This document shows, piece by piece, positions 5,194-50,123 of a DNA stretch of 58,043 bases. The stretch's first letter is position 1. Each line of letters opens with the position of its first letter. The DNA lies in NCBI GenBank assembly GCA_902776455.1, contig CACYQI010000010.1, forward strand, positions 1 through 58,043. The letters are read 5' to 3'. The notes beneath the pieces were generated by a model. That model ran no database searches and was not told the DNA's origin. It was given only the letters and a program-made list of their open reading frames with translations. Source of the stretch: an uncultured Bacteroidales bacterium. GTDB taxonomy: Bacteria > Bacteroidota > Bacteroidia > Bacteroidales > Bacteroidaceae. The translations under genes and the position numbers were made by a program.

Positions 5194-5451
5194 AGATTCT
5201 AGCAAATCAACTTTCTAAGTGGTTAGAGGTTAGAGGTTCTTTGCGTCGCCTTCGGCGAAGTGAAGAGTGAAGAGTTTGCTACCGCCATAACTTTCTTCTT
5301 GTGGTTAGAGGTTAGAAGTTAGAGGTTAGAGGATATTTGGGGATGCTGAAGGGGCAAAGGTGTCCTCTAACCTCTTACCTCTAACCTCTAACCTCTTTTC
5401 AATTTTCAATTTTCAACTTTCAATTTTCAACTTTATTCCCCCTAAAGGGGG
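5194..5451. repeat. Repeat mosaic (types E, D, B, A)
   Basis: The gap contains tandem GTTAGAGGTTAGAGGT units in both orientations (about 5220-5240, 5298-5330 and 5361-5395), a CGCCTTCGGCGAAGTGAAGA hairpin unit, and TTTTCAATTTTCAACTTTC runs. No gene is visible. Confidence 0.7.
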
Positions 5452-21318: not shown

Positions 21319-23649
21319 TTATTTGTTGTTAAGTATTTCGTCGATATAGTATAATAGTTGCTTCGACTTGTCGGGCGATTGCAATATGTCGCGAAGACTG
21401 GTGAGGAGACCTGTGATTTCGGGACTGGGAGCAAGGGGCAAAGGACTCTCTTTGGGGGCATGGGGCGAGGGACTCTCTTTGGGGGCATGGGGCGAGGGGC
21501 AAGGGGCAGGAAGATTGTTGGTGTGTGTTTGGTGTTCTCCGGCTTCTTGCTCCTCTTCTTTCTCTCCTTTTGACAATGCTGGAAAGAGGCTTTCTATGAA
21601 GCCTTGGAAGCGGTCGTCGCGAAGAAGGATGGTGTCGTCGCCGCCATCGAGCACACCCTCCATCATGGAGCGCTTGAAGCGCAAGCGGTCTATCATGCTT
21701 TCTTCGATGGAGTCTTTCGAAACGAGGTTAAGCACCTGTACGGGCATATCCTGTCCGATGCGATAGACGCGGCCGATGCGTTGTTCCAAGATGGCCGGAT
21801 TCCAAGGAAGGTCGAGGTTGATGAGAATGCTTGCCGTCTGCAGGTTGAGACCTGTGGAACCCGTATCGGTGGAAAGGAAGATGCGGCAGTCGCTTTCGTC
21901 CCAGAATCGCTCTATGAGTTCGTTTCGCTTTGTCTGCGGCACGTTGCCGTGCAGGTATTCATATCGGATGCCTCTTTCATCGAGTTCCATTGCCACCAGT
22001 CGGGCCATTCGCTCCCATTCGCTGAACACGACTATCTTTGCCGTGCTGCCCGCCAAGGCATCTTCCAGGATGCTCATCGCCTCTGCCACCTTCACGTCGT
22101 GCCTGTTCTCTTTGTCCTGGTCGATGATGAAAGTGCTGTCGGCAAGCATGCGCATCTGTCCGAACATGAGCAGCAGCCGACGGCGTTCTTCTTCGCTCAG
22201 ACTGTGGGTGCGCGACCATTTGCTCACCAGCCTTGCCACAGCGCTTCGCAATTCTTCGTGCCGACTGGTTTGTTCTGCTGTCATGGGGACGAGCAGGAAC
22301 TGGTCGGTACGCTTGGGCAATTGCAGTTGTACGCTTTGTTTTGTACGGCGGATGAGGGTATCCTTCAGTCGTTCTCCGATGTCGTTCAAGTTCTTATATC
22401 CTACCGCCTTGCCTGTTTCGGGGTCTGTGACGATGTGGTCGTAACGGAACCGATAGAGAGGGGCGAGCAGATAAGGGTCGGCAAGTTGTACGATGGAACA
22501 AAGTTCGTCGAGATTGTTCTCGAGCGGAGTGCCGGAAAGAAGTACGCTGTAGTGCGCGTCGATGCGGCGTACTGCCCATGCTGGACGCGTGTTCCAGTTC
22601 TTCAGCCGCTGCACTTCGTCCATGATGAGCAAGTCTGTGGAAAGGCGGTTGAGCGACTTCATGTCGTTGGCAAGCGACTGATAGGACACTATCTTGTACG
22701 GGGCTGCAGAGGCTTGATAGAGTTCCAATCGCCTTGAAGCATATCCCTCGACGAGGAGGACGGGCTGCTCCGTAAAACGTTCTATCTCCCGCTTCCATTG
22801 GTACTTGAGCGACGAAGGGCATACGATGAGCACACTTTCGGCCATCTTCTCCCGCAGATAAATCTCTGCACAGCAGATAGCTTGCACCGTTTTTCCCAGT
22901 CCCATCTCGTCGGCTATGATGGCCTTGCCTGCTTTGACTGCAAAGCGGACGCCTTCCTTTTGATAGGGGTACAAAGTGGTGGTGAGCAGGGCGTCGAGCA
23001 CCTCGTCTGTATATACGCTATCGACGAGCGAGGCTCTTTGCAGGCGTTCGCGTTGGCTGATGATGAGTTCGAGCGCATCGGGATAGCAACGGAACGAGGG
23101 GGCTATGCTTCGTGCCTTCTCCAAGAAGGTGTCGAAGCGGGCATACGAATCGGGGCGGAGAACGGAAGCGCGGTCGAAGTACTCTGTCGCCAAGGCCGCA
23201 AACTCTTTCCGATGGTCTTCGCCGATGCGGATGCGGATGCACCTTTCGCCATGATAGTCTATATAGACAGAAGTGTAGTCGGGTTCGTCGCGGCAGACTT
23301 CCTTGTTCTCTGCTTGCAGCCACAGCTTCACGCCCTCCACGTGCTTGCAGGTGCCGAGGCCTGACGTGCGGAAATCGGGACACGAGCAGTAGTTCCAAGG
23401 GCTGTAGGCACCGCGGTAGATGACTTTGTACTGGCTGCGCGACTTCGGGTTGCGCACCTGGTATTCTCCGGGATCGAACAGAGCGCCCAGCTCGCTGATG
23501 ATGAAGTGCTCGTGCTGAGCCTGCTGCCTCCTCAATGCCACCTGCCACTCCTCAAGCCCCATATCGGCGGGCTTCACCGCATTGCTCAGCTTGCGCTGGC
23601 CGTCTCGCTGGCTGTCGGATTTCGCTCCTGTATAGTGGTTTCTCTCCAT
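21319..23649 (-). CDS. SNF2-family DEAD/DEAH helicase with SWIM zinc finger
   Basis: A 776-residue Swi2/Snf2 ATPase that would translocate on DNA and remodel bound proteins. From the chosen ATG it has an N-terminal SWIM finger (CSC...CKH, Cys at about 88, 90 and 101, His 103), Walker A ADEMGLGKT (about 246-254), the DEVQ box in LLIMDEVQRLKN, LLSGTPLENN, and motifs V/VI (STDTGSTGLNLQ and QRIGRVYRIGQ). The -7 box covers the upstream TTG, so the ATG is preferred. The C-terminal linker (residues ~715-745) repeats PSPHAPKES and is encoded by type F-like DNA. In bacteria such proteins often stand alone. Confidence 0.9.
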   Translation of the reverse strand: MERNHYTGAKSDSQRDGQRKLSNAVKPADMGLEEWQVALRRQQAQHEHFIISELGALFDPGEYQVRNPKSRSQYKVIYRGAYSPWNYCSCPDFRTSGLGTCKHVEGVKLWLQAENKEVCRDEPDYTSVYIDYHGERCIRIRIGEDHRKEFAALATEYFDRASVLRPDSYARFDTFLEKARSIAPSFRCYPDALELIISQRERLQRASLVDSVYTDEVLDALLTTTLYPYQKEGVRFAVKAGKAIIADEMGLGKTVQAICCAEIYLREKMAESVLIVCPSSLKYQWKREIERFTEQPVLLVEGYASRRLELYQASAAPYKIVSYQSLANDMKSLNRLSTDLLIMDEVQRLKNWNTRPAWAVRRIDAHYSVLLSGTPLENNLDELCSIVQLADPYLLAPLYRFRYDHIVTDPETGKAVGYKNLNDIGERLKDTLIRRTKQSVQLQLPKRTDQFLLVPMTAEQTSRHEELRSAVARLVSKWSRTHSLSEEERRRLLLMFGQMRMLADSTFIIDQDKENRHDVKVAEAMSILEDALAGSTAKIVVFSEWERMARLVAMELDERGIRYEYLHGNVPQTKRNELIERFWDESDCRIFLSTDTGSTGLNLQTASILINLDLPWNPAILEQRIGRVYRIGQDMPVQVLNLVSKDSIEESMIDRLRFKRSMMEGVLDGGDDTILLRDDRFQGFIESLFPALSKGEKEEEQEAGEHQTHTNNLPAPCPSPHAPKESPSPHAPKESPLPLAPSPEITGLLTSLRDILQSPDKSKQLLYYIDEILNNK

Positions 23650-23901: not shown

Positions 23902-26529
23902 ATGATTGACTTGAACAAAATAGCCATTATTGCAGGCGAGCACAATGTGACGTACAGCGAACTGTTGCAAAGAGTGGCACAATATGCCAAGAAGACGCCA
24001 AAGGGCAAGCAGACGAAGACGCTCATCTTCAGCGAGAATCGTGAAGGCTGGGCGTACAGCTTCTTTTCCGTTTGGCAGAACGAAGGCATCGCTGTTCCTG
24101 TAGATGCTTCGAGCACGGCAAGCGACGTGGCCTACATCATCAACGACTGCAAGCCCGATGCCGTTTGGGTGTCGAGGGAACGGGAAGCTGTGCTGAGGGA
24201 AGCATTAGCCCCTAACCACTCACCTCTAACCACTTATATCATCGACGATTACGAATCCCTGCCGCTTGCCGACGAGCATCCCACTTCCATCCTTCCGTGG
24301 AATGCCCTTTCCGAGCCGGACAACACCGACACGGCGCTCATCATCTACACCTCGGGCACTACGGGTTCGCCGAAAGGCGTCATGCTCTCGTATGCTGCCT
24401 TGAAGGCCAACGTCCACAGCGTCTCGTACGACGTTCCCATCTATTCCGAGAAGCGTCGCGCCCTTGTCCTGCTGCCGCTCCACCACGTCCTGCCGCTCAT
24501 GGGGTCGCTCATCGCGCCTCTCTATATGGGTGGCGGCATCGCCATCAGCCCTTCCCTTTCCGGTCCCGACATCATGGACACGCTTCAGCGCGGACAGGTC
24601 GGCATCATGATAGGCGTGCCTCGTCTTTGGCAGACGCTCTTTGTCGGCATCAAGAAGAAGATTGACCAGACGGCCGTCGGCCGCATGCTCTTCGCATTGT
24701 GCAGCACCTTGAAGTGCAGGACACTCAGTCGCATCGTCTTCAGTTCCGTCAGGAAGAAGATGGGCGGACACATTGACTACCTGGTCAGCGGCGGTGCTGC
24801 TTTGGACAGAGAGATAGGCGAAGGGCTTCGCACGCTTGGCCTCGATGTGCTCGAAGGCTATGGCATGACGGAAACCGCTCCCATCATTGCCTTCACGCGC
24901 CCCGGCGACTACATCCCCGGCTGCTCGGGACTGCCCCTGCCGGGCGTTGACTGCAAGCTGGTGAATGGCGAGTTGTGCGTGAAGGGACCGAACTTGATGT
25001 CGGGCTACTACAATCGGCCCGAAGAGACCAGCGCGGTGATTGACAGCGACGGCTATCTGCATACGGGCGACCTTGCCGAGTTCGATTCGGTAGGCCGCAT
25101 CACCATTACGGGTCGAACTAAAGAAATAATTGTACTAAGCAATGGCAAGAACGTGCAACCCAGCGAGATAGAGTACAAGCTGGAGAAGTACGACTCGCTG
25201 GTCAAGGAAGCGGCAGTGGTGCAGGATGGCGACATGCTTCGGGCCATCATCGTGCCGCAGCCGGCATGGGCTTCTACCATGACCGATGCCGAAACGGCAG
25301 CGGCCTTGAAGCGCGACGTGCTGGAACCCTACAACAAGACCGTCTCTGCCTACAAGAAGATAATGAGCGTGCTCGTCTATCGCGGTGAGTTGCCTCGGAC
25401 GAGGCTCGACAAATTGCAGCGCTACAAGCTCGGAGAAATCCTGAAAGAAGGGAAAGGCGCAAGGGAAAACGAACGTAAACGAGCGGTTGAACCAACCTTC
25501 GAGGAGTATCTGTCAATCAAGCACTTCATCGAGACGGAAAAAGGCATTACCGTTCATGCCACCGACCACATCGAGACCGACCTTGCCCTCGACTCGCTCG
25601 ACAAGATAAGCTTGCAGACTTTCATCGAGAACACCTTCGGCACGTCGGTCGGCGTTGACGCGATGCCCGATTTCGCCAACATCGAAGCTTTGGCTCGCCA
25701 TGTAGCAGCCCGTAAAGGGGCAAGGAGCAAGGAGCAAGGGGCAAGAGAATACCAACAGCCAGAGCAATACTCCTGCTCCTTGCCCCAAGACCCCCCTCCA
25801 TCTCCCCCGAGGGGGAGAGTTTCGCGGCAGGAAGCCTCCCCTCGGGGAGGTTTGGAAGGGGTCTGGGGGGAGTTAGAAGGGGGGTCTTGGTCCTTGCCCC
25901 TGCCTACAGCCGGCTTCACCTACCGCCTCACATCCCGCATCTTCAAGTTGTTCTTCCGTTGCTACAACAGCTTGAAGATAAAAGGCGCGGAAAACATTCC
26001 CGCAAAAGGTGCCTGCATCCTTGCTCCCAACCACCAAAGCTTCATCGACGGGCCGTTGGTGCTCTCCGCCCTGCCGTGGAACAAGCTCGGAGAATACTTT
26101 TTCTATGCCACCGAGGAACACGTCCGCGGAAGACGCCGACGCTTGGCAGCCAAGAGCAACGTGATAGTCATGGAACGGGCCGACCTGAAGAACTCCATCT
26201 TGAAGCTTGCCAAAGTGCTCAGAGAAGGGCATCGCGTCATCATCTTCCCCGAAGGAGCGCGCACACATGACGGACAGACCGTTCCCTTTAAAAAAACCTT
26301 TGCCATCCTCGCCAAAGACCTGGAGGTGCCCGTCGTGCCCGTCTGCATCCGCGGAGCCTACGAAGCTCTGCCAAGAGGCAGTCGGTTCGTCAGCCCGAAG
26401 CACATCGAAGTGACTTTCTTGCCTGCCATCAATGGGGCAAGGAGCAAGGAGCAAGGGGCAGGAGAATTGTCCTACGAGGAACTGACCAAACAGACCCAGC
26501 ATGCCATCGAAGCGCTTTTGGCCCGATAA
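23902..26529 (+). CDS. Three-domain fusion: acyl-AMP ligase, carrier protein, PlsC-type acyltransferase
   Basis: The 875-residue protein joins an ANL-family ligase (P-loop-like IIYTSGTTGSPKGVML at about 147-162, GYGMTETAP, YLHTGDLAEF), a carrier domain with attachment Ser565 (LALDSLDKIS), and a lysophospholipid-type acyltransferase with NHQSFID (about 710-716) and FPEGARTHDG. It would activate a fatty acid, hold it on its own carrier and transfer it to a lyso-lipid, like an Aas enzyme with a built-in ACP. Residues 603-668, between carrier and acyltransferase, are encoded by the 79-bp F element plus type A repeats. Two smaller repeat-derived inserts occur near residues 103-112 (APNHSPLTT) and 845-855. 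It overlaps the next gene by 29 bp. Confidence 0.88.
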   Translation: MIDLNKIAIIAGEHNVTYSELLQRVAQYAKKTPKGKQTKTLIFSENREGWAYSFFSVWQNEGIAVPVDASSTASDVAYIINDCKPDAVWVSREREAVLREALAPNHSPLTTYIIDDYESLPLADEHPTSILPWNALSEPDNTDTALIIYTSGTTGSPKGVMLSYAALKANVHSVSYDVPIYSEKRRALVLLPLHHVLPLMGSLIAPLYMGGGIAISPSLSGPDIMDTLQRGQVGIMIGVPRLWQTLFVGIKKKIDQTAVGRMLFALCSTLKCRTLSRIVFSSVRKKMGGHIDYLVSGGAALDREIGEGLRTLGLDVLEGYGMTETAPIIAFTRPGDYIPGCSGLPLPGVDCKLVNGELCVKGPNLMSGYYNRPEETSAVIDSDGYLHTGDLAEFDSVGRITITGRTKEIIVLSNGKNVQPSEIEYKLEKYDSLVKEAAVVQDGDMLRAIIVPQPAWASTMTDAETAAALKRDVLEPYNKTVSAYKKIMSVLVYRGELPRTRLDKLQRYKLGEILKEGKGARENERKRAVEPTFEEYLSIKHFIETEKGITVHATDHIETDLALDSLDKISLQTFIENTFGTSVGVDAMPDFANIEALARHVAARKGARSKEQGAREYQQPEQYSCSLPQDPPPSPPRGRVSRQEASPRGGLEGVWGELEGGSWSLPLPTAGFTYRLTSRIFKLFFRCYNSLKIKGAENIPAKGACILAPNHQSFIDGPLVLSALPWNKLGEYFFYATEEHVRGRRRRLAAKSNVIVMERADLKNSILKLAKVLREGHRVIIFPEGARTHDGQTVPFKKTFAILAKDLEVPVVPVCIRGAYEALPRGSRFVSPKHIEVTFLPAINGARSKEQGAGELSYEELTKQTQHAIEALLAR
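25708..25786 (+). repeat. 79-bp F element, copy 1 (in frame)
   Basis: It begins GCCCGTAAAGGGGCAAGGAG and ends CTCCTGCTCCTTGCCCC, with short inverted ends (GGGGCAAGGAGCA against TGCTCCTTGCCCC). All 79 bases equal 29313-29391, and 78 of them match the reverse complement of 31268-31345 with one mismatch. It is read in the frame encoding ARKGARSKEQGAREYQQ. Confidence 0.9.
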
Positions 26530-27136
26530 GAGCGAGCAGGGCAACACGTGGACACACCTCGGAGGAGCCGTCTTTGCGCTTAGTTCCGTTTGGCTCGTAT
26601 GGTTGGCAGCGGACATCAGCCCGCAGATGACTTTCGGAGTCGTCTGCTTTCTGACAGGCATGCTCTTCATGTTCCTCAGCAGCACGGCCTATCATTGGGT
26701 GAGCGACAAAAGGCTGAAGCTGGCTTTGCGCAAGTGCGACCACATCAGCATCTATGTGATGATAGCCTGCTCCTATACGCCCATCCTTGTCGGAGTGGTG
26801 GGCGGTTGGCTTGGCTGGCTTGTCTTTGCCATTCAGTGGGCAATGGTGATAGGCGGTGCCCTGTACAAAATCTATGCGATAGGCCGCTGGCCTCGGCTCT
26901 CGTTGGCTATCTATCTCGTCATGGGATGGAGCATCGTCCTCATAGCAGAACCCGTTATGAAACTGCTGACGCCCACCACGATACTGCTGCTGCTGACCGA
27001 AGGCATAGCCTATTCCGCAGGGACATACTTCTTCGTCCACGACGACCGCCCGCACTATCATGCCATTTGGCACGTCTTTGTCCTCCTTGGCGCCATCGCC
27101 CACTGGGGAGCTGTGCTGACCTTGCTTGTGTCTTGA
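26501..27136 (+). CDS. Hemolysin III / TrhA family membrane protein
   Basis: A 211-residue protein with seven hydrophobic segments and the PAQR-type conserved residues: NTWTHLGGAVFAL (the early His), SSTAYHWVSDKR, KCDHISIYVMIACSYTPI, and late HAIWHVFVLLGAIAHW. These His residues and the Ser/Asp probably bind a metal. The family is linked to membrane energetics and, in some cases, hemolysis; its biochemical role is unsettled. The ATG at 26501 lies in the preceding ORF, overlapping it by 29 bp, so co-translation is likely. Confidence 0.88.
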   Translation: MPSKRFWPDKSEQGNTWTHLGGAVFALSSVWLVWLAADISPQMTFGVVCFLTGMLFMFLSSTAYHWVSDKRLKLALRKCDHISIYVMIACSYTPILVGVVGGWLGWLVFAIQWAMVIGGALYKIYAIGRWPRLSLAIYLVMGWSIVLIAEPVMKLLTPTTILLLLTEGIAYSAGTYFFVHDDRPHYHAIWHVFVLLGAIAHWGAVLTLLVS

Positions 27137-28637
27137 AAAGGCGTTTAGTTTATTCTCCTTGCAGGTTTTGTCCGTTCTCCGTTGAGATTTCGCTAAATCT
27201 CCGTGGAGTGTCTGTGGTGTTCTTTGACCACATACCCCCAGCCTGCCGATTTGTGATGTACCGACACCAATGCGACAAATTTCAAGCTTTAAAATTCTTT
27301 GAATTTTAATTTCGCGTTTTAAGGCCCGTAGAGCGCTTCTTTTTGCTCGGGGTAGTCCAATATACGTCCGAGGCACTCAAAAGCGAATCTCGGGCAAATT
27401 AGAGGGGTTTTAGAGGGGTTGGGGAATTGAGAGTTGAAAGTTGAAAATTGAAAAGCCTCCTCTAAATCTCCCCCTAAAGGGAGAGACTTCAGCCTCCTCT
27501 AAATCTCCCCCCTAAAGGGAGAGACTTCAGCCCCCCACTAACTCCCCCTAAAGGGAGAACGGCAAGGCAGACGGACGGTTCACCCTCCTTTGGAGAGGTA
27601 GGGGAGGCTTGAAATTGAAAGGTTTACCGCGAATACGGCATCGATTTCTAACAAATCCAACATTACCAACACCACCAACACCACCAACACGCGAAAAAAA
27701 GACACAAGCACCTGCTTATATATATATATAATAATTAGCCATACTATACTTAATAATATAAGTATTATATATATGCAATCGCTTGTGTCTCAAAAAAACA
27801 TGTTGGTTATGTTGGTTATGTTGGTTTTTTTGTAACTTTACACCCGAAAACATAGTTTCAAACACACACATCATGCGAAGAAACTCTCATAACATATTGA
27901 GCCACAAGGTGCTGCCATCCTACCCCTGCCATCTTGTTTGCAACATGCGGTAAGAGTGTTTCTGCCCGATTGTGTGGATTTCTTTGTGATTTTCGCCCCT
28001 CCTGCTTGCTGTTTTTACCCTCTGAGAAGGGTGTTTTTGTGGTTTTTCCTGCCTTTTTCGCGTTTTCGTCGTGCCAAAACGAAGAAATCCGGTTTGTGGA
28101 GATAGATGCTTATTATGCCGAGTTGTGTCGTCAGAATGCCATGTAAGAGCACGAAACACCCGTTTTGCAATGGCTCACCCCCCTAAATAATTTACGATTT
28201 TACGATTTACAATTTACTATTTATTTACAATTTTATAATTTAGCTATTTACAAGGCGGTAGCAAATTCTTCGCTCTTCATTCTTAATTCTTCATTTACAA
28301 AGGGCGGCGGAGCGTAGTAACTTTGATTTTTCACTTTTCACTTTTCACTCTTCACTTCGCCGAAGGCGACATTCTTCACTTTTCACTTCGCCAAAGGCGA
28401 CATTTAGGGCGTAGCCTTAATTTTGAATTTTGAATTGTTTATCTTTCGTTTCTTTCGTGCTTTTAGATGTGGTAAAATAATTGCTTCCTGTGTGACTGTG
28501 TGATAATTCTCAACTTTCAATTTTGCATTTTGTATGTACATTTCGTGCTTCGTACTTCTCCTTTTTTCGCTTTTCGTTCTTCTTTTTCTCCTTTCATTTT
28601 TCAATTTTTCAACTTTCGATTTTCAATTTTCAATAAT
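27137..28637. other. 1.5-kb gene-free region: repeats and array locus 2
   Basis: It includes a K-like fragment near 27190-27230 (AAATCTCCGTGGAGTGTC), three type A hairpins at about 27460-27610, the inverted array locus 2, a C/T-rich region at 27934-28146 whose 70-codon ORF lacks coding character, and long runs of types C, D and B (28190-28637). I find no gene. Confidence 0.6.
27664..27825. repeat. Inverted array locus 2 (ACCAACACC motif)
   Basis: Left arm: TACCAACACCACCAACACCA, a 9-bp unit repeated three times (27664-27690), then GACACAAGC (27701-27709). A spacer of about 70 bp rich in TATATA follows. Right arm: GCTTGTGTC (27781-27789), then TGTTGGTTATGTTGGTTATG with three units to 27825. 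The two arms are inverted copies. AACATATTGAGCCACA at 27891-27906 recurs beside locus 3. No gene is attached. Confidence 0.7.
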
Positions 28638-28643
28638 ATGTTG

Positions 28644-28651
28644 TATCTTTG
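28644..28651 (+). promoter_or_regulatory. -7 box TATCTTTG for the SMR-type gene
   Basis: It lies 19 bases before the ATG at 28671 and inside the longer upstream ORF, which supports the downstream start. Confidence 0.55.
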
Positions 28652-28670
28652 CAAAAATAATCTGAGAAAT

Positions 28671-29024
28671 ATGCATCTGTTGCCTTTGGCTTTCACCCAA
28701 TGCCTGCTGCTTGCGAGCGGACAGGTGTTCCTGAAACTTGCTCTTGGCAGGATGGCTCCTTTCGGCTGGAACTGGGAGTTCTTCGGCTCGGTGCTGACGA
28801 ACTGGCAGCTGGCCCTCAGCGGTCTTTTCTGCGGCGCAGGTACGGCCCTCTGGTTCTACATCATCAAGCACTTCCCCTTCAGCATGGCCTATCCTTTGGT
28901 GTCGATGAGCTACGCGCTGGGCATGATAGCGGCTATCGTGGTGTTCCACGAAGAGGTGAGTGCGACGCGATGGCTGGGGGTTGTGCTCATCATGGCGGGA
29001 TGCTATCTGATTGCAAAAAATTGA
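28671..29024 (+). CDS. SMR/EmrE-like four-helix membrane protein
   Basis: A protein of 117 residues beginning MHLLPLAFTQCLLLASGQVF, with four hydrophobic segments (about 3-24, 36-58, 62-84 and 92-113). It resembles the small multidrug resistance/EamA half-transporter group, including the ArnE/F-type lipid flippase subunits. The position ahead of LolA-like, GT2-acyltransferase and MMPL genes favours a lipid-related role, but a drug exporter is possible. The short leader and the -7 box set the start at 28671. Confidence 0.75.
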   Translation: MHLLPLAFTQCLLLASGQVFLKLALGRMAPFGWNWEFFGSVLTNWQLALSGLFCGAGTALWFYIIKHFPFSMAYPLVSMSYALGMIAAIVVFHEEVSATRWLGVVLIMAGCYLIAKN

Positions 29025-29072
29025 AAGGGGTCGAAAATTGAGAATTGAAAGTGGAAAGTTGAAAGTGGAAAA

Positions 29073-29714
29073 TTGAAAGTGGAAAAGATAAAACGGGGCT
29101 GTCTCATTATCGTTTGTTGTCTGTTGGCGGTTGCTCTTCCGGCACAGACGCTGAGCGAACAGGACATCATCAAGAAGATGGCATCTGCGGCTGAGAAGAC
29201 AAGAACTGTCCGGGCCGACTTCACGCAAACAAGGTACTCGAAGATGCTCAAGAATGCGCAAACGTGGCAGGGCAAGTTGTTCTGCGAACTGCCCGACAAG
29301 CTTCGGTGGGAAGCCCGTAAAGGGGCAAGGAGCAAGGAGCAAGGGGCAAGAGAATACCAACAGCCAGAGCAATACTCCTGCTCCTTGCCCCCTGCCCCCT
29401 GCCCCTTAAAAGGGGGGGTCCATACTCCCCCTAAAGGGGGAAGGGTTGGAGGCAAGATAGCACGCATGATTATGAGCTGCGTGTCTGGCAAGTGTCTGAC
29501 TGACAGCAAGGCTTTCCAAGTATCGGCCAGATGCATCCGTCCTGGCGAATACGTGGCGGAGCTGCTGCCATTGAAGAAAGAGATGAAGCGGATGTATGCC
29601 AAACTTGTCCTGCATTTCGATGTCAAAGAAGAGACAGTAAACGAGGTAGAGCTATACGAAAAGAACGGCGACCGCACAGTAATCAAGCTGCATGACATAC
29701 GCATCAACAACTGA
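29073..29714 (+). CDS. LolA-like outer-membrane lipoprotein carrier protein, interrupted by repeats
   Basis: A periplasmic protein with signal peptide (IKRGCLIIVCCLLAVALPAQ) and LolA features: IIKKMASAAEKTRTVRADFT, GKLFCELPDKLRW and C-terminal LHDIRIN. LolA relatives in aryl-polyene and flexirubin clusters probably shuttle lipid. No ATG is available: the in-frame stop at 29046 leaves only TTG 29073 or GTG 29079, both in type B repeat. Residues 81-126 are encoded by the 79-bp F element and a type A palindrome. Without that insert only about 168 residues remain, shorter than usual, so some native sequence seems to have been replaced; activity is uncertain. Confidence 0.7.
   Translation: MKVEKIKRGCLIIVCCLLAVALPAQTLSEQDIIKKMASAAEKTRTVRADFTQTRYSKMLKNAQTWQGKLFCELPDKLRWEARKGARSKEQGAREYQQPEQYSCSLPPAPCPLKGGVHTPPKGGRVGGKIARMIMSCVSGKCLTDSKAFQVSARCIRPGEYVAELLPLKKEMKRMYAKLVLHFDVKEETVNEVELYEKNGDRTVIKLHDIRINN
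29313..29391 (+). repeat. 79-bp F element, copy 2 (in frame)
   Basis: Identical to 25708-25786, base for base, and in the same reading frame within an unrelated gene. It is followed by further CCCCCTGCCCCCTGCCCC and a CCCCCTAAAGGGGG-type hairpin. Confidence 0.9.
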
Positions 29715-31197
29715 TACGCTTCGCGCGAGAGGCATCTGCGTGGTGATTCCGACGTACAACAATGCCGGAACCATCGGCGATGTAGTGAGCCGGACGTGCA
29801 GGCAGTGCCGCGACGTGATAGTGGTCTGCGACGGTTGCACGGACGGTACGCCCGACATTCTCCGTGGCATGGAGGGCATCACTCTTGTTGTCCGCGAGAA
29901 GAACGGAGGCAAGGGAGCCGCTCTGAAAGACGGTTTCCGCAAAGCGAAAAGCATGGGGTTTGCCTATGCCATTACGCTGGATGCCGACGGACAGCACTTC
30001 CCCGAGGACATTCCCGCGTTGCTCCATGCCAACCAGAAGCATCCGGGAGCGCTCGTTGTGGGCGTCCGAGAGAGAGAGGCAAGGAGCAAGGGGCAAGGGG
30101 CTGGCAGCAAGTTTGCCAACGCTTTCAGCAACTTCTGGTTTGCCCTGCAGACGTGGCATCGGCTGGAGGACACGCAGTCGGGGTTCCGCCTCTATCCTCT
30201 CAGAAAGCTCTGCTGCATTGGGTTGCTCACTTCCCGCTACGAGGCGGAGCTGGAACTGCTCGTCTTTGCGTCGTGGCATGGGGTAGAGTTGGTGTCGGTA
30301 CCCGTTGGCGTCTATTACCCGAATCCCGAGGAACGTGTGTCGCACTTCCGCCCAGTGAGGGACTTCTCGCGCATCTTTGTCCTGAACACCGTGCTGTGCG
30401 TGCTGGCTGTTGTCTATGGTTTGCCGCGAGCCTTGTGGCGCTGGCTGATGACGTTTCTGCGCACGGCCTACTCGCTGCTTTTCTTCCTCCTCGTTGTTGT
30501 CTTCATCTGCCCGCCCTACGCTCTGTACTACAGACTGTTTGTGCGAGACGAGGAGCGGCGACGCATGGGCATGCATCGTCTGCTCTGCTTCTTTGCAAGG
30601 TTCGTGACGCTTTGGCACGGCATTCCGGGCGTGAGGTTCTCGCTGGGCAACCCCGAAGGCGAGGACTTCGGTAGGCCGGCCATCATCATAGCGAACCACC
30701 AGTCGCATCTGGACCTTATGACCATGCTGATGCATACGCCCCGACTGGTCTGTCTGACGAAAGACTGGGTTTGGAACAACCGGCTCTACGGCTACATCAT
30801 CCGCGGGGCAGAGTTCTATCCCGTCTCGGAGGGCACGGAAAGCCTGATGCCTAAGCTGAGGTCGCTGGTGGAGAGAGGCTACAGCATAGCGGTCTATCCG
30901 GAGGGTACGCGCGAGGCCGACTGCAAGATAATGCGCTTCCGGCAGGGAGCTTTCTATCTGGCTCAGCAGCTCGACATCGATGTGCTGCCCATCGTCTCCT
31001 ACGGTACGGGAAAAGCTTTGCCCAAGAGGGGGAAGTACCTCCGCAAGTGGCCCATCAGGGTGGAGATAGACCGACGCATCAGTCCGCAGGAGTTGCTGAC
31101 GTTTGGCGAGACGCCGAGGCTGCAGGCGTCGAAGATGAGAAAGTACTTTGAACGAAGATATGCCGAGATGGCGAACCGAATAGAACAAGATGTGTAA
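29692..31197 (+). CDS. Glycosyltransferase 2 / lysophospholipid acyltransferase fusion
   Basis: A 501-residue protein. The GT2 domain (about 14-230) has VVIPTYNNAGTIGDVV, DGCTDGT and LDADGQHF (Asp97-x-Asp99, metal/nucleotide binding); two hydrophobic segments (about 228-280) link it to a PlsC-like domain with NHQSHLDL (about 335-342) and VYPEGTREADC. This exact fusion is typical of aryl-polyene and flexirubin clusters, where it is thought to attach sugar and acyl groups to the membrane lipid. A short type F insert lies at about residues 130-139 (REARSKGQGAGS). It overlaps the LolA-like stop by 23 bp. Confidence 0.88.
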   Translation: MTYASTTDTLRARGICVVIPTYNNAGTIGDVVSRTCRQCRDVIVVCDGCTDGTPDILRGMEGITLVVREKNGGKGAALKDGFRKAKSMGFAYAITLDADGQHFPEDIPALLHANQKHPGALVVGVREREARSKGQGAGSKFANAFSNFWFALQTWHRLEDTQSGFRLYPLRKLCCIGLLTSRYEAELELLVFASWHGVELVSVPVGVYYPNPEERVSHFRPVRDFSRIFVLNTVLCVLAVVYGLPRALWRWLMTFLRTAYSLLFFLLVVVFICPPYALYYRLFVRDEERRRMGMHRLLCFFARFVTLWHGIPGVRFSLGNPEGEDFGRPAIIIANHQSHLDLMTMLMHTPRLVCLTKDWVWNNRLYGYIIRGAEFYPVSEGTESLMPKLRSLVERGYSIAVYPEGTREADCKIMRFRQGAFYLAQQLDIDVLPIVSYGTGKALPKRGKYLRKWPIRVEIDRRISPQELLTFGETPRLQASKMRKYFERRYAEMANRIEQDV

Positions 31198-32092
31198 GCA
31201 ACTGCTGATAGTCCTTTCCCTGCTCCTTGCTCCCAGCTCCTTGCTCCTTTACGGGGGCAGGGGGCAGGGGGCAAGGAGCAGGAGTATTGCTCTGGCTGTT
31301 GGCATTCTCTTGCCCCTTGCTCCTTGCTCCTTGCCCCTTTACGGGGGCAGGAAGCAGGGCGCTACGGCCGTCATTGTCTGTCCCGGCGGCTCGTACAGCT
31401 GGCTCGCCATGAAGACAGAAGGCACGGATGTGGCTCGATGGCTTCAGGCAAACGGCATTTCGGCTTTCGTGCTGAAATACAGGGTGCAAGGCGTCGTTCC
31501 GTACATCACGCATTCGCGGCTTGTGTTCCGTGGACACCAGTACCCCGACATGATGAACGACCTCAATCAAGCCATCCGCCATGTTCGCGAACATGCCGAT
31601 GAGTACGGCATCGACCCGGAACGTATAGGCGTGATGGGCTTCTCGGCAGGCGGACATCTGGCTCTCTGTGGAGCTTCCCTCATCGGGGAGAGGTTGGAGG
31701 GGGACTGCCCTTCTTTCATCGCTGCCATCTATCCCGTGGTGAGCATGTCGCATCCATGCAGCCACAAGCGTTCGCGTCGCGCCTTGCTGGGAGAATACAG
31801 GAAGTATAGCCGGAAGATGCGCGACTCGCTTTCAGTAGAAAGACACATCCCGAAGGACTGTCCGCCCGTCTTCCTCGTCAACTGCAAAGACGACAAGACC
31901 GTGAACTACCAGAACTCCGTGCTTCTCGACTCGGCTCTTACCGCTCAGGGCATCAGCCATCGCTACATACAATACCAGACAGGCGGCCACGGCTTCGGAG
32001 TCTCCGAGACAAAGGGAACTGCGGAGTGCAGGGCTTGGAAGGAGGAGTTCCTGAGCTGGCTGAAAGACACATTCGGGGAACAAGAACAATAA
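31190..32092 (+). CDS. Alpha/beta-hydrolase esterase with repeat-encoded N-terminus
   Basis: The catalytic part (from about residue 60) is a BD-FAE/acetyl-esterase-like fold: VCPGGSYSWLAM (oxyanion), GVMGFSAGGHLALC (nucleophile), VNCKDDKTVN (acid) and TGGHGFG (His). The ATG overlaps the GT2 gene by 8 bp. Residues ~14-58 come from two copies of type F repeat read so that they encode hydrophobic stretches (LLLAPSSLLL; ILLPLAPCSL), together acting perhaps as a signal or anchor. Its place in a lipid cluster suggests it acts on an acyl or acetyl ester of the product. Confidence 0.78.
   Translation: MCKQLLIVLSLLLAPSSLLLYGGRGQGARSRSIALAVGILLPLAPCSLPLYGGRKQGATAVIVCPGGSYSWLAMKTEGTDVARWLQANGISAFVLKYRVQGVVPYITHSRLVFRGHQYPDMMNDLNQAIRHVREHADEYGIDPERIGVMGFSAGGHLALCGASLIGERLEGDCPSFIAAIYPVVSMSHPCSHKRSRRALLGEYRKYSRKMRDSLSVERHIPKDCPPVFLVNCKDDKTVNYQNSVLLDSALTAQGISHRYIQYQTGGHGFGVSETKGTAECRAWKEEFLSWLKDTFGEQEQ
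31268..31345 (-). repeat. F element, copy 3 (inverted)
   Basis: The reverse complement of the 79-bp unit with one difference (GGCATT for GGTATT). A further partial copy precedes it (31219-31260). Read forward it encodes GARSRSIALAVGILLPLAP, also free of stops. Confidence 0.88.
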
Positions 32093-32111: not shown

Positions 32112-34628
32112 ATGGTGCTGAAGATGTTCGACTTTTTCCGCCGTCACGCTTTCATCCGCTGGGCTTCGCTCATTGGCGTGACGATGATGATGCTGGCTTC
32201 TGTCATGCGTCTCTCCTACAAGGAAGACATTCTCGACTTCCTGCCGCTCGACGAGACAGACAGGCAGCGGATGGCTATCTACGAGGACATCTCGGGCATG
32301 AACCGCCTCTTCGTCATCTTCGAGAACGTGGGTGGCGCAGAAGCGACGATAGAGATGGTGGAGCGGTTTGCAGAAATGGTGGAGGAAACCGATACGGCAG
32401 GGCTTTGCCAAAGCATGCGTACAAGTTTCGACTCCGAAAGCATCTCGGAGGCAATGGACTTCATCGTAGCGAAGGCTCCGCTCCTGCTCACCGCAGCCGA
32501 CTACAAGCGGATGGACAGTCTGCTCTCTAAGCCCGGATACATCGAAGCGAAGCTCGAAGAGGACCTCAACACCCTGATGTTCCCTTCGGGCGGATGGGCA
32601 GAACAGCACATCGGCCGCGACCCGCTCGGCCTCTTCGCTCCCCTTCTGGAAGAGTTCGGGAAGACAGAAGGCAGCTCGCACTTCGAGATGTACGACGGCT
32701 ACATCTTCACTTCCGACATGCAGCAAGCTATCGTCATGCTCACGTCCCCCTTCGGCAGCAGCGAGACAGCAGGAAACGCCCGTCTGGTCGATTTGCTCGA
32801 GCAGAGCATAGAGAAGACAAAAGCCGATTTCCCCGACATGAAGGCACACGTGGCTGGCGGACCGCAGATAGCCGTGACGTCAGCCCGACAAATCATGCGC
32901 GACAGCATGCTGGCTCTGTCGCTTTCGGCAGTACTCATCATAGCCTTGCTGCTCTATGCTTTCCGCAGGTTCCGATACATCCTGCTCATCGCCCTCACCG
33001 TGCTTTGGGGCTGGCTTTTCGCTCTTGGCGCATTGGCTTTCGTCCACAGCAATGTGTCGATGATAGTGGTAGGCATTTCGAGCATCATCATCGGCATTGC
33101 CGTCAACTATCCGCTCCACCTTATCAGTCACCTCCAACACCAGCCCGACATCCGCGAAACGCTGAGCGACATAACAAAACCGCTGCTTGTGGGCAACATC
33201 ACGACCGTAGCGGCATTCCTCGCCCTCGTTCCACTCAAATCAACTTGCCTGCGCGACCTCGGCCTCTTCGCCTCCTTCCTGCTGATTGGGACGATTCTCT
33301 TCGTGCTGATTTGGCTGCCACATAAAGCCTCTCCAGCCTCTCCCCAAACAGCCTCTCCCCAACCCTCTCCCGTGGGAGAGGGAGTTCTCCCCCTCGGGGG
33401 AGATAGAGGGGGGTCTTTTCCATTTTCAACTTTCAACTTTCAATTTTCAGCCTCTAAAGTCCTTGTCCTGATAGCTCTGCTGACGCTTGTCTTCGGCTAC
33501 TTTAGCCTCTCTGTTGAGTTTGACTCCGACTTGTCGAACATCAACTACTTGACCGACGAGCAGAAGTCCGACATGAACAAAGCCTTTGGAGAGGGACGTG
33601 GAGAAGCGTCCCTAAAGGGTACCGTCACGCTCTATCTGCTTTCTTCGGGCAGAGACTTCGACGAGGCACTCGTCCTCTCGGAATCGAAGCAAGCAGTCAT
33701 CGACTCTCTCGAGGAAGCGGGAATGGTGGCGAACCATCGGGGCATCAGTCGTTTCCTGCCCTCGAAGAAGAAACAGCAGGAGCACCTCAAACTTTGGAAC
33801 GAATGGCTGGAGAGGCATCCGCATCTTCTTTCCGACTTGAAGTCGGCCGCCACGAAACAAGGCTTTGCAGAAGATGCCTTCTCCGACTTCGAGAACATCA
33901 TCATTTCGGAACACGCCATCGCCTCCTTCTCCGACTTCCAGCCACTGACATCCGAAGTGTTTGCCAACAACATTTCGAGGGCTGCTAAGGGCAAATCCAC
34001 CATAGCAGAGACGCTGACCATCCGCGAAGATGATGCCAAGAGGGTCAAAGAAGTCTTGCCCGAAGCCTTCGACATCGGTTCCCTCCACTCGTCCCTCGCC
34101 GACGCACTTTCCTCCGACTTCAACTATGTCGGTTGGGTCTGCTCCCTTGTGGTCTTCCTGTTCCTCTGGCTCTCCTTCCGAAGCATCAAGCTGGCCGTCA
34201 TCTCCTTCATCCCGATGGCTGTCAGCTGGATATGGATTCTGGGTATCATGTCGTTGCTCGGCATCAAGTTCAACATCGTCAACATCATTCTGGCCACCTT
34301 CATCTTCGGCCAAGGCGACGACTACACCATCTTCATCACCGAAGGCTGCATCTCGGAATATGTGTACGGAAAGCCTGTCCTCGCCTCCTACAAACGAAGC
34401 ATCATCCTCTCTGCCCTCATCATGTTCATCGGCATCGGCACACTCATCACGAGCCGTCATCCTGCCCTCCATTCGCTCGCAGAAGTCACTATCGTCGGCA
34501 TGTTCTCTGTCGTACTGATGGCATACATCATCCCGCCTATACTCGTCAGAAAATTGAAAATTGAAAAAGACCCCCTACCCCCCTTTAGGGGGAATATCTC
34601 CCTCTCCCCATCGCCTTCGGCGAAGTGA
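32112..34628 (+). CDS. MMPL/RND-superfamily lipid exporter
   Basis: An 838-residue inner-membrane protein with two halves, each made of a periplasmic domain and six hydrophobic segments. The first half has the helix set around 275-400 (LSLSAVLIIALLLYAF and following), the second around 680-820 (WVCSLVVFLFLWLSF, GIKFNIVNIILATFIFGQGD). MMPL proteins of aryl-polyene-like clusters export lipid. Residues ~407-448 between the halves are type A and B repeat (SPQPSPVGEGVLPLGG, then FSTFNFQFSA). The C-terminal ~25 residues (KIEKDPLPPFRGNISLS) are repeat-encoded too and resemble the phosphopantetheinyl transferase tail. Confidence 0.85.
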   Translation: MVLKMFDFFRRHAFIRWASLIGVTMMMLASVMRLSYKEDILDFLPLDETDRQRMAIYEDISGMNRLFVIFENVGGAEATIEMVERFAEMVEETDTAGLCQSMRTSFDSESISEAMDFIVAKAPLLLTAADYKRMDSLLSKPGYIEAKLEEDLNTLMFPSGGWAEQHIGRDPLGLFAPLLEEFGKTEGSSHFEMYDGYIFTSDMQQAIVMLTSPFGSSETAGNARLVDLLEQSIEKTKADFPDMKAHVAGGPQIAVTSARQIMRDSMLALSLSAVLIIALLLYAFRRFRYILLIALTVLWGWLFALGALAFVHSNVSMIVVGISSIIIGIAVNYPLHLISHLQHQPDIRETLSDITKPLLVGNITTVAAFLALVPLKSTCLRDLGLFASFLLIGTILFVLIWLPHKASPASPQTASPQPSPVGEGVLPLGGDRGGSFPFSTFNFQFSASKVLVLIALLTLVFGYFSLSVEFDSDLSNINYLTDEQKSDMNKAFGEGRGEASLKGTVTLYLLSSGRDFDEALVLSESKQAVIDSLEEAGMVANHRGISRFLPSKKKQQEHLKLWNEWLERHPHLLSDLKSAATKQGFAEDAFSDFENIIISEHAIASFSDFQPLTSEVFANNISRAAKGKSTIAETLTIREDDAKRVKEVLPEAFDIGSLHSSLADALSSDFNYVGWVCSLVVFLFLWLSFRSIKLAVISFIPMAVSWIWILGIMSLLGIKFNIVNIILATFIFGQGDDYTIFITEGCISEYVYGKPVLASYKRSIILSALIMFIGIGTLITSRHPALHSLAEVTIVGMFSVVLMAYIIPPILVRKLKIEKDPLPPFRGNISLSPSPSAK

Positions 34629-34802
34629 AAAGTGAAAAGTGAAAAGTGAAAAATCAAAGTTACCTACCGCCCTGTAAATAATTAAATTACTAAATAGTAC
34701 ATAAATCGTAAATTGTAAATCGTCAAATCGTAAATTATATAGGATCGTCAAATAGTAAATTAATTAGGATTGTCAACTCGTAAATTTAAAATATAATTAA
34801 AT

Positions 34803-39757: not shown

Positions 39758-40016
39758 TCGGCTTTCCTAACGAAAGCAGCTCATGGGGGCTTACTCTAAA
39801 GTCCCGAGGAACGAAAGAACACAGACGAGGGATGCAAGCCCCCGGTAATGGTACAACGACAGAGAAAGCCCCGAGGGGGCGACAGAGAACTGAGCAAGTT
39901 GTTATCGAACATGTTAGATATTCTGTCGCCCCTTCAGGGCTTAGTATTGTTGACGCATTTGTTCCGGGGGTTTTCACCCCCGTCTGTGATCTTTCGCACC
40001 TCCGGTGCTTATTCTC
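39758..40016 (+). repeat. 255-bp nested-hairpin element L, copy 1
   Basis: It carries a series of paired hairpin motifs in mirror order: AAAGTCCCGAGGAACGAAAG, GCAAGCCCCCGG, AAGCCCCGAGGGGGCGACAG, then CTGTCGCCCCTTCAGGGC, CCGGGGGTTTTCACCCCCG, GCACCTCCGGTGC. The whole unit is a long imperfect palindrome. The reverse complement of 49871-50123 aligns over its full length. It lies upstream of GH97 with no ORF. Confidence 0.8.
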
Positions 40017-40511: not shown

Positions 40512-41513
40512 CTATTGGGCGGTCTGCATGACGGCTTTGAAGTAGCCGACGCTCTCGGCGATGCCGATGAAGGGGTCGCTCATGTCCTTCTCATACTCGA
40601 GGCTGACGGAACCCTTGTAGCCCACTTTGCGCAACAACTTGACGAAGAGGGGGAAGTCGATGATGCCTCGTCCCAGCTCGATGGCTTTGCCCTCTTTCGT
40701 CGGAGCGGTAACGTCCTTGAGATGAATGTCGAAGACGCGCTTGGCATAACGCTTGAGGTCGCGCATCGGGTCGCTGCCGTAGCGTAGGTCATGCCCGATG
40801 TCGAGGCAGATGCCCAGTCGGGGGTCGCGGTCCTTGACGTCCTCCCAGATGGACGTTGCATCGGGGTAGAGCGACATGTCGGGGCCGTGCAGGTGGATGG
40901 CATAGCGGATGTTCGTCTCGCGAACCAGCTGTTCCACGCGGTCGAGCACAGCATAGTTGGGCGACTTGTCGCCCCAGGAGCCGGGCACGCCCACGACAAG
41001 GTCAACGCCCACTCGCTGAGCGTAGGCAAAAGCTTTCTCGGCTGCCGGCACGTCCTTCATGTAGATAGGTCCAACGGCATAGCCGACGACATTGTGCTCG
41101 GCAAGCTTGGCCTTGAACGCAGCCACTTGGTCGGCATCGGCATCAAGCGGCAGGTGGAAGTCCTTGATGCAGAGATAATGGACGTCTATTCGGCGCATGA
41201 AGGCCAACGTGGTGTCGATGTCGAACTTGTTGAACGTGTAGCCCGCCATGCCGAGATGGAAGGAAGACCCTCTTCCCAACCCTTCCCCCTCTATGGGGAA
41301 CGGCATCTCGTCTGATTTAGTGGTTAGGGGTGAGTGGTTAGGGGTTAGAGGATTGTTGGGGATGCTGGCTTCGGTGCCAGAAGTATTCTCTAACCTCTTA
41401 CCTCTAACCTCTAACCACTTAGAGAGGGCCTTTGAGTTAGAAAACGCCTGTTGTGTTTGCAGCATGGCAACACCTGCCAAGCTGCTTCGGAGAAATGTTC
41501 TGCGGTTTATCAT
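40512..41513 (-). CDS. Tat-exported sugar phosphate isomerase/epimerase-like TIM barrel
   Basis: From the ATG at 41511-41513 the 333-residue protein starts MINRRTFLRSSLAGVAM, a twin-arginine signal, then a xylose-isomerase-like TIM barrel with metal-binding Glu/His/Asp/Glu positions (HLHGPDMS, LGICLDIGHDLRYG, FDIHLKDVT, VSLEYEKDM). Such proteins in Bacteroidetes often act on keto-sugars, alongside GH or DUF1080 enzymes; the substrate is unknown. Residues ~33-82 are repeat-derived: type E (PNNPLTPNHSPLTT) and type A (PIEGEGLGRG), lying between the signal and the barrel, where an insertion is easy to tolerate. Confidence 0.85.
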   Translation of the reverse strand: MINRRTFLRSSLAGVAMLQTQQAFSNSKALSKWLEVRGKRLENTSGTEASIPNNPLTPNHSPLTTKSDEMPFPIEGEGLGRGSSFHLGMAGYTFNKFDIDTTLAFMRRIDVHYLCIKDFHLPLDADADQVAAFKAKLAEHNVVGYAVGPIYMKDVPAAEKAFAYAQRVGVDLVVGVPGSWGDKSPNYAVLDRVEQLVRETNIRYAIHLHGPDMSLYPDATSIWEDVKDRDPRLGICLDIGHDLRYGSDPMRDLKRYAKRVFDIHLKDVTAPTKEGKAIELGRGIIDFPLFVKLLRKVGYKGSVSLEYEKDMSDPFIGIAESVGYFKAVMQTAQ

Positions 41514-41676: not shown

Positions 41677-41702
41677 CAGAGAAAAACAAAAAGTAAGCCC
41701 TC

Positions 41703-41785
41703 CTGTCGCCTTCGGCGAAGTAAAAAGTGAAGAATATCGCCTTCGGCGAAGTGAAAAGTGAAGAATGTCGCCTTCGGCGAAGTGA
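41703..41785. repeat. Three UUCG hairpins with ~32-bp period (type D)
   Basis: TCGCCTTCGGCGAAGTGAAA and close variants occur at about 41706, 41737 and 41769. Each encodes a C(UUCG)G tetraloop stem in the RNA. They sit in the predicted leader of the defence-like genes and could pause or terminate transcription, or simply be dispersed repeats. Confidence 0.65.
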
Positions 41786-41899
41786 AAAGTGAAAAGTGAA
41801 AAGTGAAAAATCAAAGTTACCAGCCGCGCTGTAAATAGCTAAATTATAAAATTGTAAATAAATCGTAAATAGTAAATCGTCAAATCGTAAATTACCTCG

Positions 41900-49870: not shown

Positions 49871-50123
49871 CTAAATAAGCACCGGAGGTGCGAAAGAACA
49901 CAGCCGGGGGTGACCCCCCGGGACAAGCGCATTAACAAAACTAAGCCCCGAAAGGGCGACAGAACATGTAACGTGTTTAATAACAACATGCTTAGGTATC
50001 TGTCGCCCCTTCGGGGCTTCTTTGATTGTCGCACTACTACCGGGGGCTTGCGCCCCCGTCTGTGGTCTCTCGTCCCTTCGGGACTTTAGATAAGCCCCCC
50101 ATGAGCTGCTTTTCGTCAGGCAA
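49871..50123 (-). repeat. 255-bp nested-hairpin element L, copy 2
   Basis: Read on the minus strand it aligns with 39758-40016 across the full length: GCAGCTCATGGGGGGCTTAT, CAAGCCCCCGGTAGTAG, AAGCCCCGAAGGGGCGACAG, GTCGCCCTTTCGGGGCTTAG, CCGGGGGGTCACCCCCGGC, GCACCTCCGGTGCTTA. Many differences inside stems are paired changes that keep the hairpins. No gene lies in the surrounding 802-bp gap. Confidence 0.8.

Follow-up and report, generated by a model that had tools for sequence, protein, structure and literature searches.

An 84-bp hairpin family with stop-free heptad arms lies in frame within unrelated conserved genes of an uncultured Bacteroidales bacterium

Three unrelated genes in the window share one hairpin

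We analyzed a stretch of 58,043 nucleotides (referred to as the window) from contig CACYQI010000010.1 of an uncultured Bacteroidales bacterium (GCA_902776455.1; referred to as the source genome), in which three unrelated genes contain copies of one short hairpin, here called the element. The element is an imperfect hairpin of 84 bp, consisting of four heptads GGRGCAA, a core and four heptads YTGCYCC, as defined by cutting the loci by heptads. Copies of it occur in frame inside unrelated conserved genes and also between genes. In the window, the three host open reading frames (ORFs) and their copies are as follows.

23902-26529, + strand: host gene 1, AMP-binding ligase fused to an acyltransferase, ORF of 875 aa (PF00501, PF23562, PF01553)
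25707-25786, + strand: copy 1, comprising the flank AGCCCGTAAA, the left arm (25717-25744), the core and the first two right-arm heptads (sequence comparison)
25787-25888, + strand: F5-type palindromes AAGACCCC...GGGGTCTT within the right arm of copy 1 (ends by eye; part is repeat family D20)
25887-25900, + strand: last two right-arm heptads of copy 1, one mismatched (heptad cutting)
29073-29714, + strand: host gene 2, LolA-like, ORF of 213 aa (PF03548)
29322-29405, + strand: copy 2, complete 84-bp hairpin of four heptads, 28-nt core and four heptads (heptad cutting, fold)
31190-32092, + strand: host gene 3, alpha/beta hydrolase (esterase), ORF of 300 aa (PF20434, PF07859)
31254-31337, - strand: copy 3, complete 84-bp hairpin, inverted, close to the N-terminus (heptad cutting)

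By direct comparison, 25707-25786 and 29312-29391 are identical over 80 bp, extending by one base pair the identity reported in the initial annotation of this DNA, and the reverse complement of 31268-31345 differs from copies 1 and 2 at one of 78 bases, as had been reported. The three ORFs are indeed unbroken; copies 1 and 2 share a frame (REYQQPEQYS), and copy 3 is read in a hydrophobic antisense frame (RSIALAVGIL). The near-identity of the copies suggests recent copying, as proposed at the outset. By contrast, the 79-bp unit first described marks the limits of the shared stretch rather than the ends of the hairpins listed above, and the stop codon noted in another frame of it (CCG TAA) exists but is located in the outer flank, outside the 84-bp hairpin. 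In the esterase (31190-31360), the element makes up most of an N-terminal hydrophobic stretch (LLLAP repeats) and might form part of a signal peptide.

The core, GAGAATAC...AATCCTC, is mostly 28 nt long and has this length in 42 of the 63 distinct complete copies found among all loci compared, hence the usual element length of 84 bp. The arms are inverted, imperfect repeats, i.e., terminal inverted repeats are present, and A-C or G-T mismatches between the complementary arms are frequent. When copy 2 was folded as DNA together with its flanks, the z score was -2.89, and 2 of 200 shuffled sequences folded equally well. The GGRGCAA heptad contains no stop codon in any frame of either strand; all six frames are open in 31 of the 63 distinct copies (compared with 2.1% of 1,260 shuffles) and in a consensus of the 84-bp hairpin drawn by eye. 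Also by eye, several of the best-matching copies appear to sit in the loop of a second palindrome, F5 (AAGACCCCCTCTAACTCCCCC TTAAAG GGGGAG...GGGGTCTT), which would explain the presence of CCCGTAAA at the edge of the unit described first.

Distribution across genomes

A search of the source genome yielded 69 element matches (some sites on both strands, some halves), among which the other two window copies have E values of 4e-36 and 1e-33, excluding chance. With the source genome included in each count, matches were found in 23 of 101 genomes of the genus and in 14 of 399 genomes, belonging to 3 of 30 genera, of the family; the matches per genome in these surveys are lower bounds, as few candidates were scored. 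Scanning 84,980 species genomes for an exact pattern, with contigs of at least 3,000 bases covered and the window's own or very near records possibly excluded, gave 42 stretches, all from Prevotellaceae, Bacteroidaceae, Prevotella or Bacteroidales records and none from Rickettsia. Where the titles of these 42 records name a source, it is the ruminant stomach.

The element inside genes

The initial annotation had proposed counting copies in and out of genes. With a minimum ORF length of 200 aa and 40 aa on each side as the criterion, 20 of the 28 complete hairpins in the source genome and 14 of the 18 in other genomes lie within long ORFs (34/46 in sum). Because these fractions are about equal to those of random windows under the same criterion (0.66 and 0.69, respectively), the element shows no avoidance of genes. 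Broken genes were called from ORF geometry alone, and the sole flagged case, L040, sits between two long plus-strand ORFs.

Twenty-four core-bearing copies lie within 22 ORFs that have a Pfam match, a list that leaves out core-less copies (L059, L061, L062, L063 and half pieces), two copies in long ORFs without a Pfam match (L038 and L046) and one in which the element precedes the domain (L045). Hosts named by Pfam include RecG, an RNase R-like RNB protein (called RNase R from its Pfam domains), BipA/TypA, an EngB-type GTPase, EPSP synthase, PrmA, RsmF, a SpoU methylase, shikimate dehydrogenase and an ABC ATPase. Eight ORFs have a single Pfam domain extending across the insert (EPSP synthase, EngB GTPase, GSCFA, ODP, DEAD of RecG, RNB, ABC and PGI, the PGI insert being a half element). 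Compared with solved relatives, the insert falls between residues 68 and 69 of the EngB relative 1sul and between residues 391 and 395 of the BipA relative 8ewh, and amounts to a gain of 6 aa over the glucose-6-phosphate isomerase 3ifs; judged from these alignments, the three positions would be surface turns.

Within genes, 20 of the 24 copies are oriented forward and 4 in reverse (p = 0.0015); the EPSP synthase copy is an orientation tie, and counting it otherwise gives 19 of 24 (p = 0.0066). The sense-strand hairpin is the weaker one in 22 of 24 genic copies. In all 8 intergenic copies (L029, L030, L031, L033, L040, L045, L046 and L057), too, the core-forward strand (that with GAGAATAC) forms a weaker fold than the opposite strand, and the fold asymmetry thus belongs to the element; selection against mRNA structure was dropped as an explanation for the same reason. 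At paired purine/pyrimidine sites of the 63 copies, the core-forward strand has 114 A-C and 41 G-T combinations. The orientation bias alone remains, and peptide quality would explain it equally.

Host sites are empty or differently filled in relatives

We aligned seven host sites by their protein flanks (BipA, RNase R, EPSP synthase, RecG, RsmF, LolA and a glycosyltransferase/acyltransferase, GT2) and assigned the types of filling by eye. In 171 of 171 rows, source genome included, the gap between the flanks is a multiple of three and contains no stop. In this count, 13 EPSP synthase rows in which the flanks overlap by 6 nt, leaving no gap, were scored as in frame, and LolA and GT2 have 21 loci each that gave 20 and 21 rows besides the source genome. 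When the fillings were typed, the EPSP synthase locus L213 yielded no row, and the same LolA and GT2 relatives occur twice; RsmF rows L267 and L274 both come from G129. For RNase R, RsmF, BipA and EPSP synthase, the two flanks lie within a single open frame at each of the 94 loci of relatives.

The fillings differ between relatives. In BipA, the flanks are separated by 12 nt (EIDG or near) in 21 of 22 relatives, which count as empty, and one (G065) has the element in common with the source genome. In RNase R, 15 of 23 relatives have no repeat, G020 shares the element, and 7 have F5-like palindromes in the same loop. EPSP synthase has a tight loop in 13 of 24 relatives, clear F5 inserts in 9 and doubtful ones in 2; in the source genome, its heptad hairpin is apparently nested in F5. 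In RecG, other families are present at 4 of 29 other loci (one GTAAAT heptad array and three CT-rich palindromes). RsmF is the most varied site: among 25 loci, two share the GGRGCAA hairpin (G005 and G104), one has a hairpin of heptad GGTTAGA with the same core, four have GTGAAGA hairpins (from three genomes), two have CTCTCAA or CAACTGT arrays, four have clear and three doubtful F5-like palindromes, eight are unfilled, and one is long without a repeat. At the LolA site, the source genome has 144 nt of element compared with mostly 96 to 102 nt in relatives, two of which have F5-like sequence there, and at the GT2 site, 36 nt with heptads stand against 30 to 33 nt of other sequence.

The gains in length are +75 for BipA, +78 for RecG (relative to 18-nt linkers), +24 for RNase R, +42 to +48 for LolA (relative to most relatives) and +3 for GT2. 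Because these gains differ, it is selection rather than a constant insert size that preserves the frame, and some host sequence has been lost. The initial annotation had proposed a comparison of empty sites and had named homologues in distant genera as the place to find the peptide, were it a normal part of each protein. Empty or refilled sites were found, but host sequence is replaced there and no target duplication was recognized; in relatives of the same genus, with which the search for the peptide was run in part, the sites are empty or differently filled.

This comparison also bears on the idea that the repeats are an artifact of assembling short reads. The assemblies are drafts, and the repeat is identical at two sites and nearly so at a third; however, the element is present at orthologous sites of separately assembled genomes (RNase R of G020, BipA of G065, and RsmF of G005 and G104), and we regard an artifact as hardly credible.

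Sister families and the filtering of stops

Arrays of GGRGCAA lie inside ORFs in 56 of 79 cases, compared with a fraction of 0.72 for random 28-bp windows. For other heptads, the corresponding counts are 9 of 42 when stops are present on one strand, 4 of 28 when they are present on both, and 0 of 1 for one other stop-free heptad. The difference between 56/79 and 13/71 gives p = 7e-11, although the p values given here are too small because loci of the array count were partly picked by GGRGCAA and copies are related.

A sister family, F6, shares the core (GAGAATAC...CAATCCTC) and has the heptad GAGGTTA, the repeats of which contain stops. It has 91 matches in the source genome (both strands counted), and the following are in the window.

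5304-5395, - strand: F6 sister hairpin, same core, heptad GAGGTTA (81% identity to query)
41323-41416, - strand: F6 sister hairpin (81% identity to query)
24193-24235, + strand: single F6 arm (TCTAACC), in frame in host gene 1 (repeat search)

Among the best 25 of the 91 matches, 24 of them distinct, 3 of 24 F6 hairpins lie in ORFs, as opposed to 20 of 28 for GGRGCAA (p = 2e-5), with random windows there at 58%; one of the three (L321) precedes the Pfam domain of its ORF. Because the GGRGCAA heptad has no stop on either strand, most landings are readable, and, most simply, translation would determine the places in which such elements survive. The initial annotation had suggested that the frames are selected or filtered: they are not mainly chosen, the heptad being stop-free, but filtering shows in which heptad families occupy ORFs.

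The same data speak to whether the element might be removed from RNA or skipped by the ribosome, as with mobile bypassing elements, leaving a normal protein. Predicted mRNA hairpins are strong (sense strand, -30.6 to -75.6 kcal/mol in 24 copies), but neither the kept frame without stops in all 171 rows nor the rarity of stop-bearing sister hairpins in ORFs would be needed in that case, making this very unlikely.

The F5 family (AGACCCCTCTAA...TTTAGAGGGGTCT), with 53 matches in the source genome, also occurs in frame within genes across the genus (25787-25888; L166:2717-2796; L180).

Persistence and movement of the element

Altogether, our findings support that the element is a non-autonomous, dispersed family of 84-bp hairpins that spreads regardless of genes and survives there because it is stop-free and sited in loops, a reading to which we assign a probability of about 0.8. 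Directly supported are the copies, their constant design, a site occupied in one species and vacant in relatives, and the unbroken frame at the compared sites. We suggest that copies arrive without regard to genes and that, within genes, the survivors would be those preserving the frame and sited in turns or variable linkers. The encoded host protein would then carry an additional, mostly hydrophilic peptide, such as the predicted KEQGARSKEQENTNSQSNPPAPCPLPLAP or SKEQENTNSQSNPPAP (the latter in RNase R, BipA or RsmF), and the element would persist because translation passes through it, its heptad being free of stops in all frames of both strands. The initial proposal of a mobile mini-element that adds an in-frame peptide, like the Rickettsia palindromic elements, is thus the best reading, on a larger scale than first seen.

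Copying may occur by replication or repair. Template switching or break repair would fit the replacement of host bases better than a cut-and-paste transposase, which is disfavored in its standard form because host bases were lost and no duplication was recognized; old sites could explain both. Partial copies in the window include the following.

26434-26461, + strand: 28-bp half element of four heptads, in frame near the C-terminus of host gene 1 (heptad cutting)
29692-31197, + strand: GT2 gene carrying three heptads (ORF; PF00535, PF01553)
30076-30096, + strand: these three in-frame heptads (heptad cutting, relatives compared)
21428-21509, - strand: diverged arms in the C-terminal part of a SNF2-type helicase ORF (heptad cutting)

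The existence of 28-bp half elements and of arms next to foreign heptads suggests that the arms are separate modules. Alternatively, arrays might have arisen locally through replication slippage of 7 nt within linkers, with no mobile element. A preference of slippage for 7 nt has been put forward for bacteria at large (Mrazek 2007, cited in PMC4679880), and the short repeats of the compared loci are predominantly of period 7, with 171 arrays versus 17 or fewer for each of the other periods between 4 and 12, an excess due in part to loci having been picked by the GGRGCAA heptad. Core-less arrays of 21 to 28 bp, such as 30076-30096 and 26434-26461, and heptad-like stretches seen by eye at the LolA site of some relatives would also suit it. 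However, tens of loci have the non-periodic core together with its arms, and unrelated genes share an identical stretch of 80 bp; transfer of the core between loci is beyond slippage, which is largely refuted for core-bearing copies and quite unlikely as the sole process.

We consider it unlikely, too, that the element is of the repetitive extragenic palindromic (REP) type and mobilized in trans by a Y1 transposase (REP-associated tyrosine transposase, RAYT). Its hairpin form, its dispersal and the lack of a visible target duplication are compatible with this, and the source genome has three Y1_Tnp matches, two of them above the cut-off. Still, the palindrome flanking a RAYT-like gene in L094 is another one (GGCGGATTTGTAATCCGCC), the inspected stretches of L094, L095 and L096 around the Y1 matches contain no GGRGCAA hairpin, and REPs are by name extragenic, whereas most of the complete hairpins here (34/46) lie in long ORFs. 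Y1 transposases were rejected as movers because just one RAYT-like gene is clearly flanked by a palindrome, and this palindrome is a different one. That gene (L094:1250-2260; 179 aa) and its own palindrome are probably an ordinary REP/RAYT unit.

Several points weigh against a dispersed family surviving by translation. No mover gene was found for the element, and no target duplication was recognized at the host sites compared with relatives, which may be old. The source assembly is a draft (94 contigs, 87% complete). At LolA, the source genome lacks about 100 nt that are coding sequence in the relatives, so that the LolA protein may be impaired. Two frames of relatives are cut upstream, namely, that of RNase R in G047, where the aligned part contains a stop and the frame starts only 60 aa before the left flank (L186), and that of BipA in G071, which starts only 64 aa before the left flank (L246). 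Eight RsmF matches contain stops. In all these genes, the region between the flanks and shortly after them is free of such stops. The sharing of an element at one site fits vertical descent and repeated gain alike. To these add the too small p values and that translation of the inserts, although probable, is deduced from sequence. Lastly, paired arm positions show no covariation: the matched fraction is 0.370 versus 0.480 in shuffles, i.e., mismatches are in excess (63 oriented copies, each counted once, with 4 orientation ties; the shuffles ignore the kinship of copies), so that nothing shows that the fold is maintained. Correction of one arm templated by the other in the hairpin, a candidate mechanism that predicted covariation, was rejected because the opposite was found.

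Tentatively, we speculate that the element is part of a heptad superfamily, in which one core with exchangeable arms (GGRGCAA, GAGGTTA and perhaps GTGAAGA), along with F5, overwrites particular loops of core proteins again and again throughout the genus and acts as a natural in-frame loop mutagen; copying would proceed via a strand-specific hairpin, with G-T/G-U pairs kept on one strand and A-C on the other, in genic and intergenic copies alike. We hold this to be possible rather than probable.

Other repeats in the window

A search of the window at Rfam gathering thresholds gave no match on the element and a single match elsewhere. Acido-Lenti-1 RNA (Rfam) at 50040-50085 scores 38 bits against a threshold of 37 and overlaps one arm of an inverted repeat (39829-39979 / 49906-50056). 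Between genes, 27640-27850 is a long hairpin with arms of 9-bp repeats (ACCACCAAC / GTTGGTTAT) around an AT-rich inner hairpin, and 28182-28432, 34606-34743 and 41700-41894 are larger composite intergenic repeats of GTAAAT and GTGAAAA heptads with TCGCCTTCGGCGA.

Comparison with known systems

In the literature, judged by the titles and abstract openings of the best-ranked matches, no such elements are described for Prevotella or Bacteroidetes. Bacterial miniature inverted-repeat transposable elements (MITEs) with ORFs (ERIC/RU-1, the 107-bp Correia element and RU-3) are small and non-autonomous with readable frames, some fused to genes (PMC2229807, PMC2759123), and are primarily intergenic (PMC2229807). 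The element resembles them as a small non-autonomous repeat with a readable frame; it differs in lying in ORFs about as often as expected by chance and in that no target duplication was recognized at the compared sites, which may be old.

Porphyromonas gingivalis is a relative within the Bacteroidales. Its BrickBuilt MITE likewise has a tandem repeat within an inverted-repeat element, but the unit is 23 nt rather than 7 bp, and BrickBuilt is described as always intergenic (PMC4596501). Heptanucleotide arrays (TAACTGA) of Beggiatoaceae and others, including five Bacteroidetes, have a 7-bp unit as here; they are direct repeats and mostly intergenic, and the available part of their description mentions no hairpin with a core (PMC4679880). 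The triplex motif TMECO of E. coli K-12, CCCTCNCCC...GGGNGAGGG, is reported as always intergenic (PMC4666352); by eye, it resembles the F5 palindromes and is unlike the heptad element.

The closest parallel is with the Rickettsia palindromic elements, short hairpins of 105 to 146 bp in and between genes that are found in frame in unrelated conserved proteins, one of which, gmk, is translated and active (PMC10969869, PMC2229807). Both are many-copy hairpins lying in frame in unrelated conserved genes and also intergenically; by this analogy, the element would work like them, the likeness being one of behavior. It differs in phylum, in its usual length of 84 bp, in its arms of 7-bp repeats, in that about half of the copies are open in six frames and in that the same protein loops also hold other families. 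The available portions of PMC10969869 and PMC2229807 mention neither heptad arms, nor exchangeable arms on one core, nor shared loops for the Rickettsia elements. A 2024 review considers a process similar to that of the Rickettsia protein-coding palindromes conceivable in other prokaryotes (PMC10969869). Such palindromes are here met in gut Bacteroidota related to Prevotella, together with natural controls, namely, one core that occurs with either stop-free or stop-bearing arms, and loops that are filled in some and empty in others of about 20 relatives. The system permits measuring the translational filtering of selfish DNA and which protein loops tolerate insertion.

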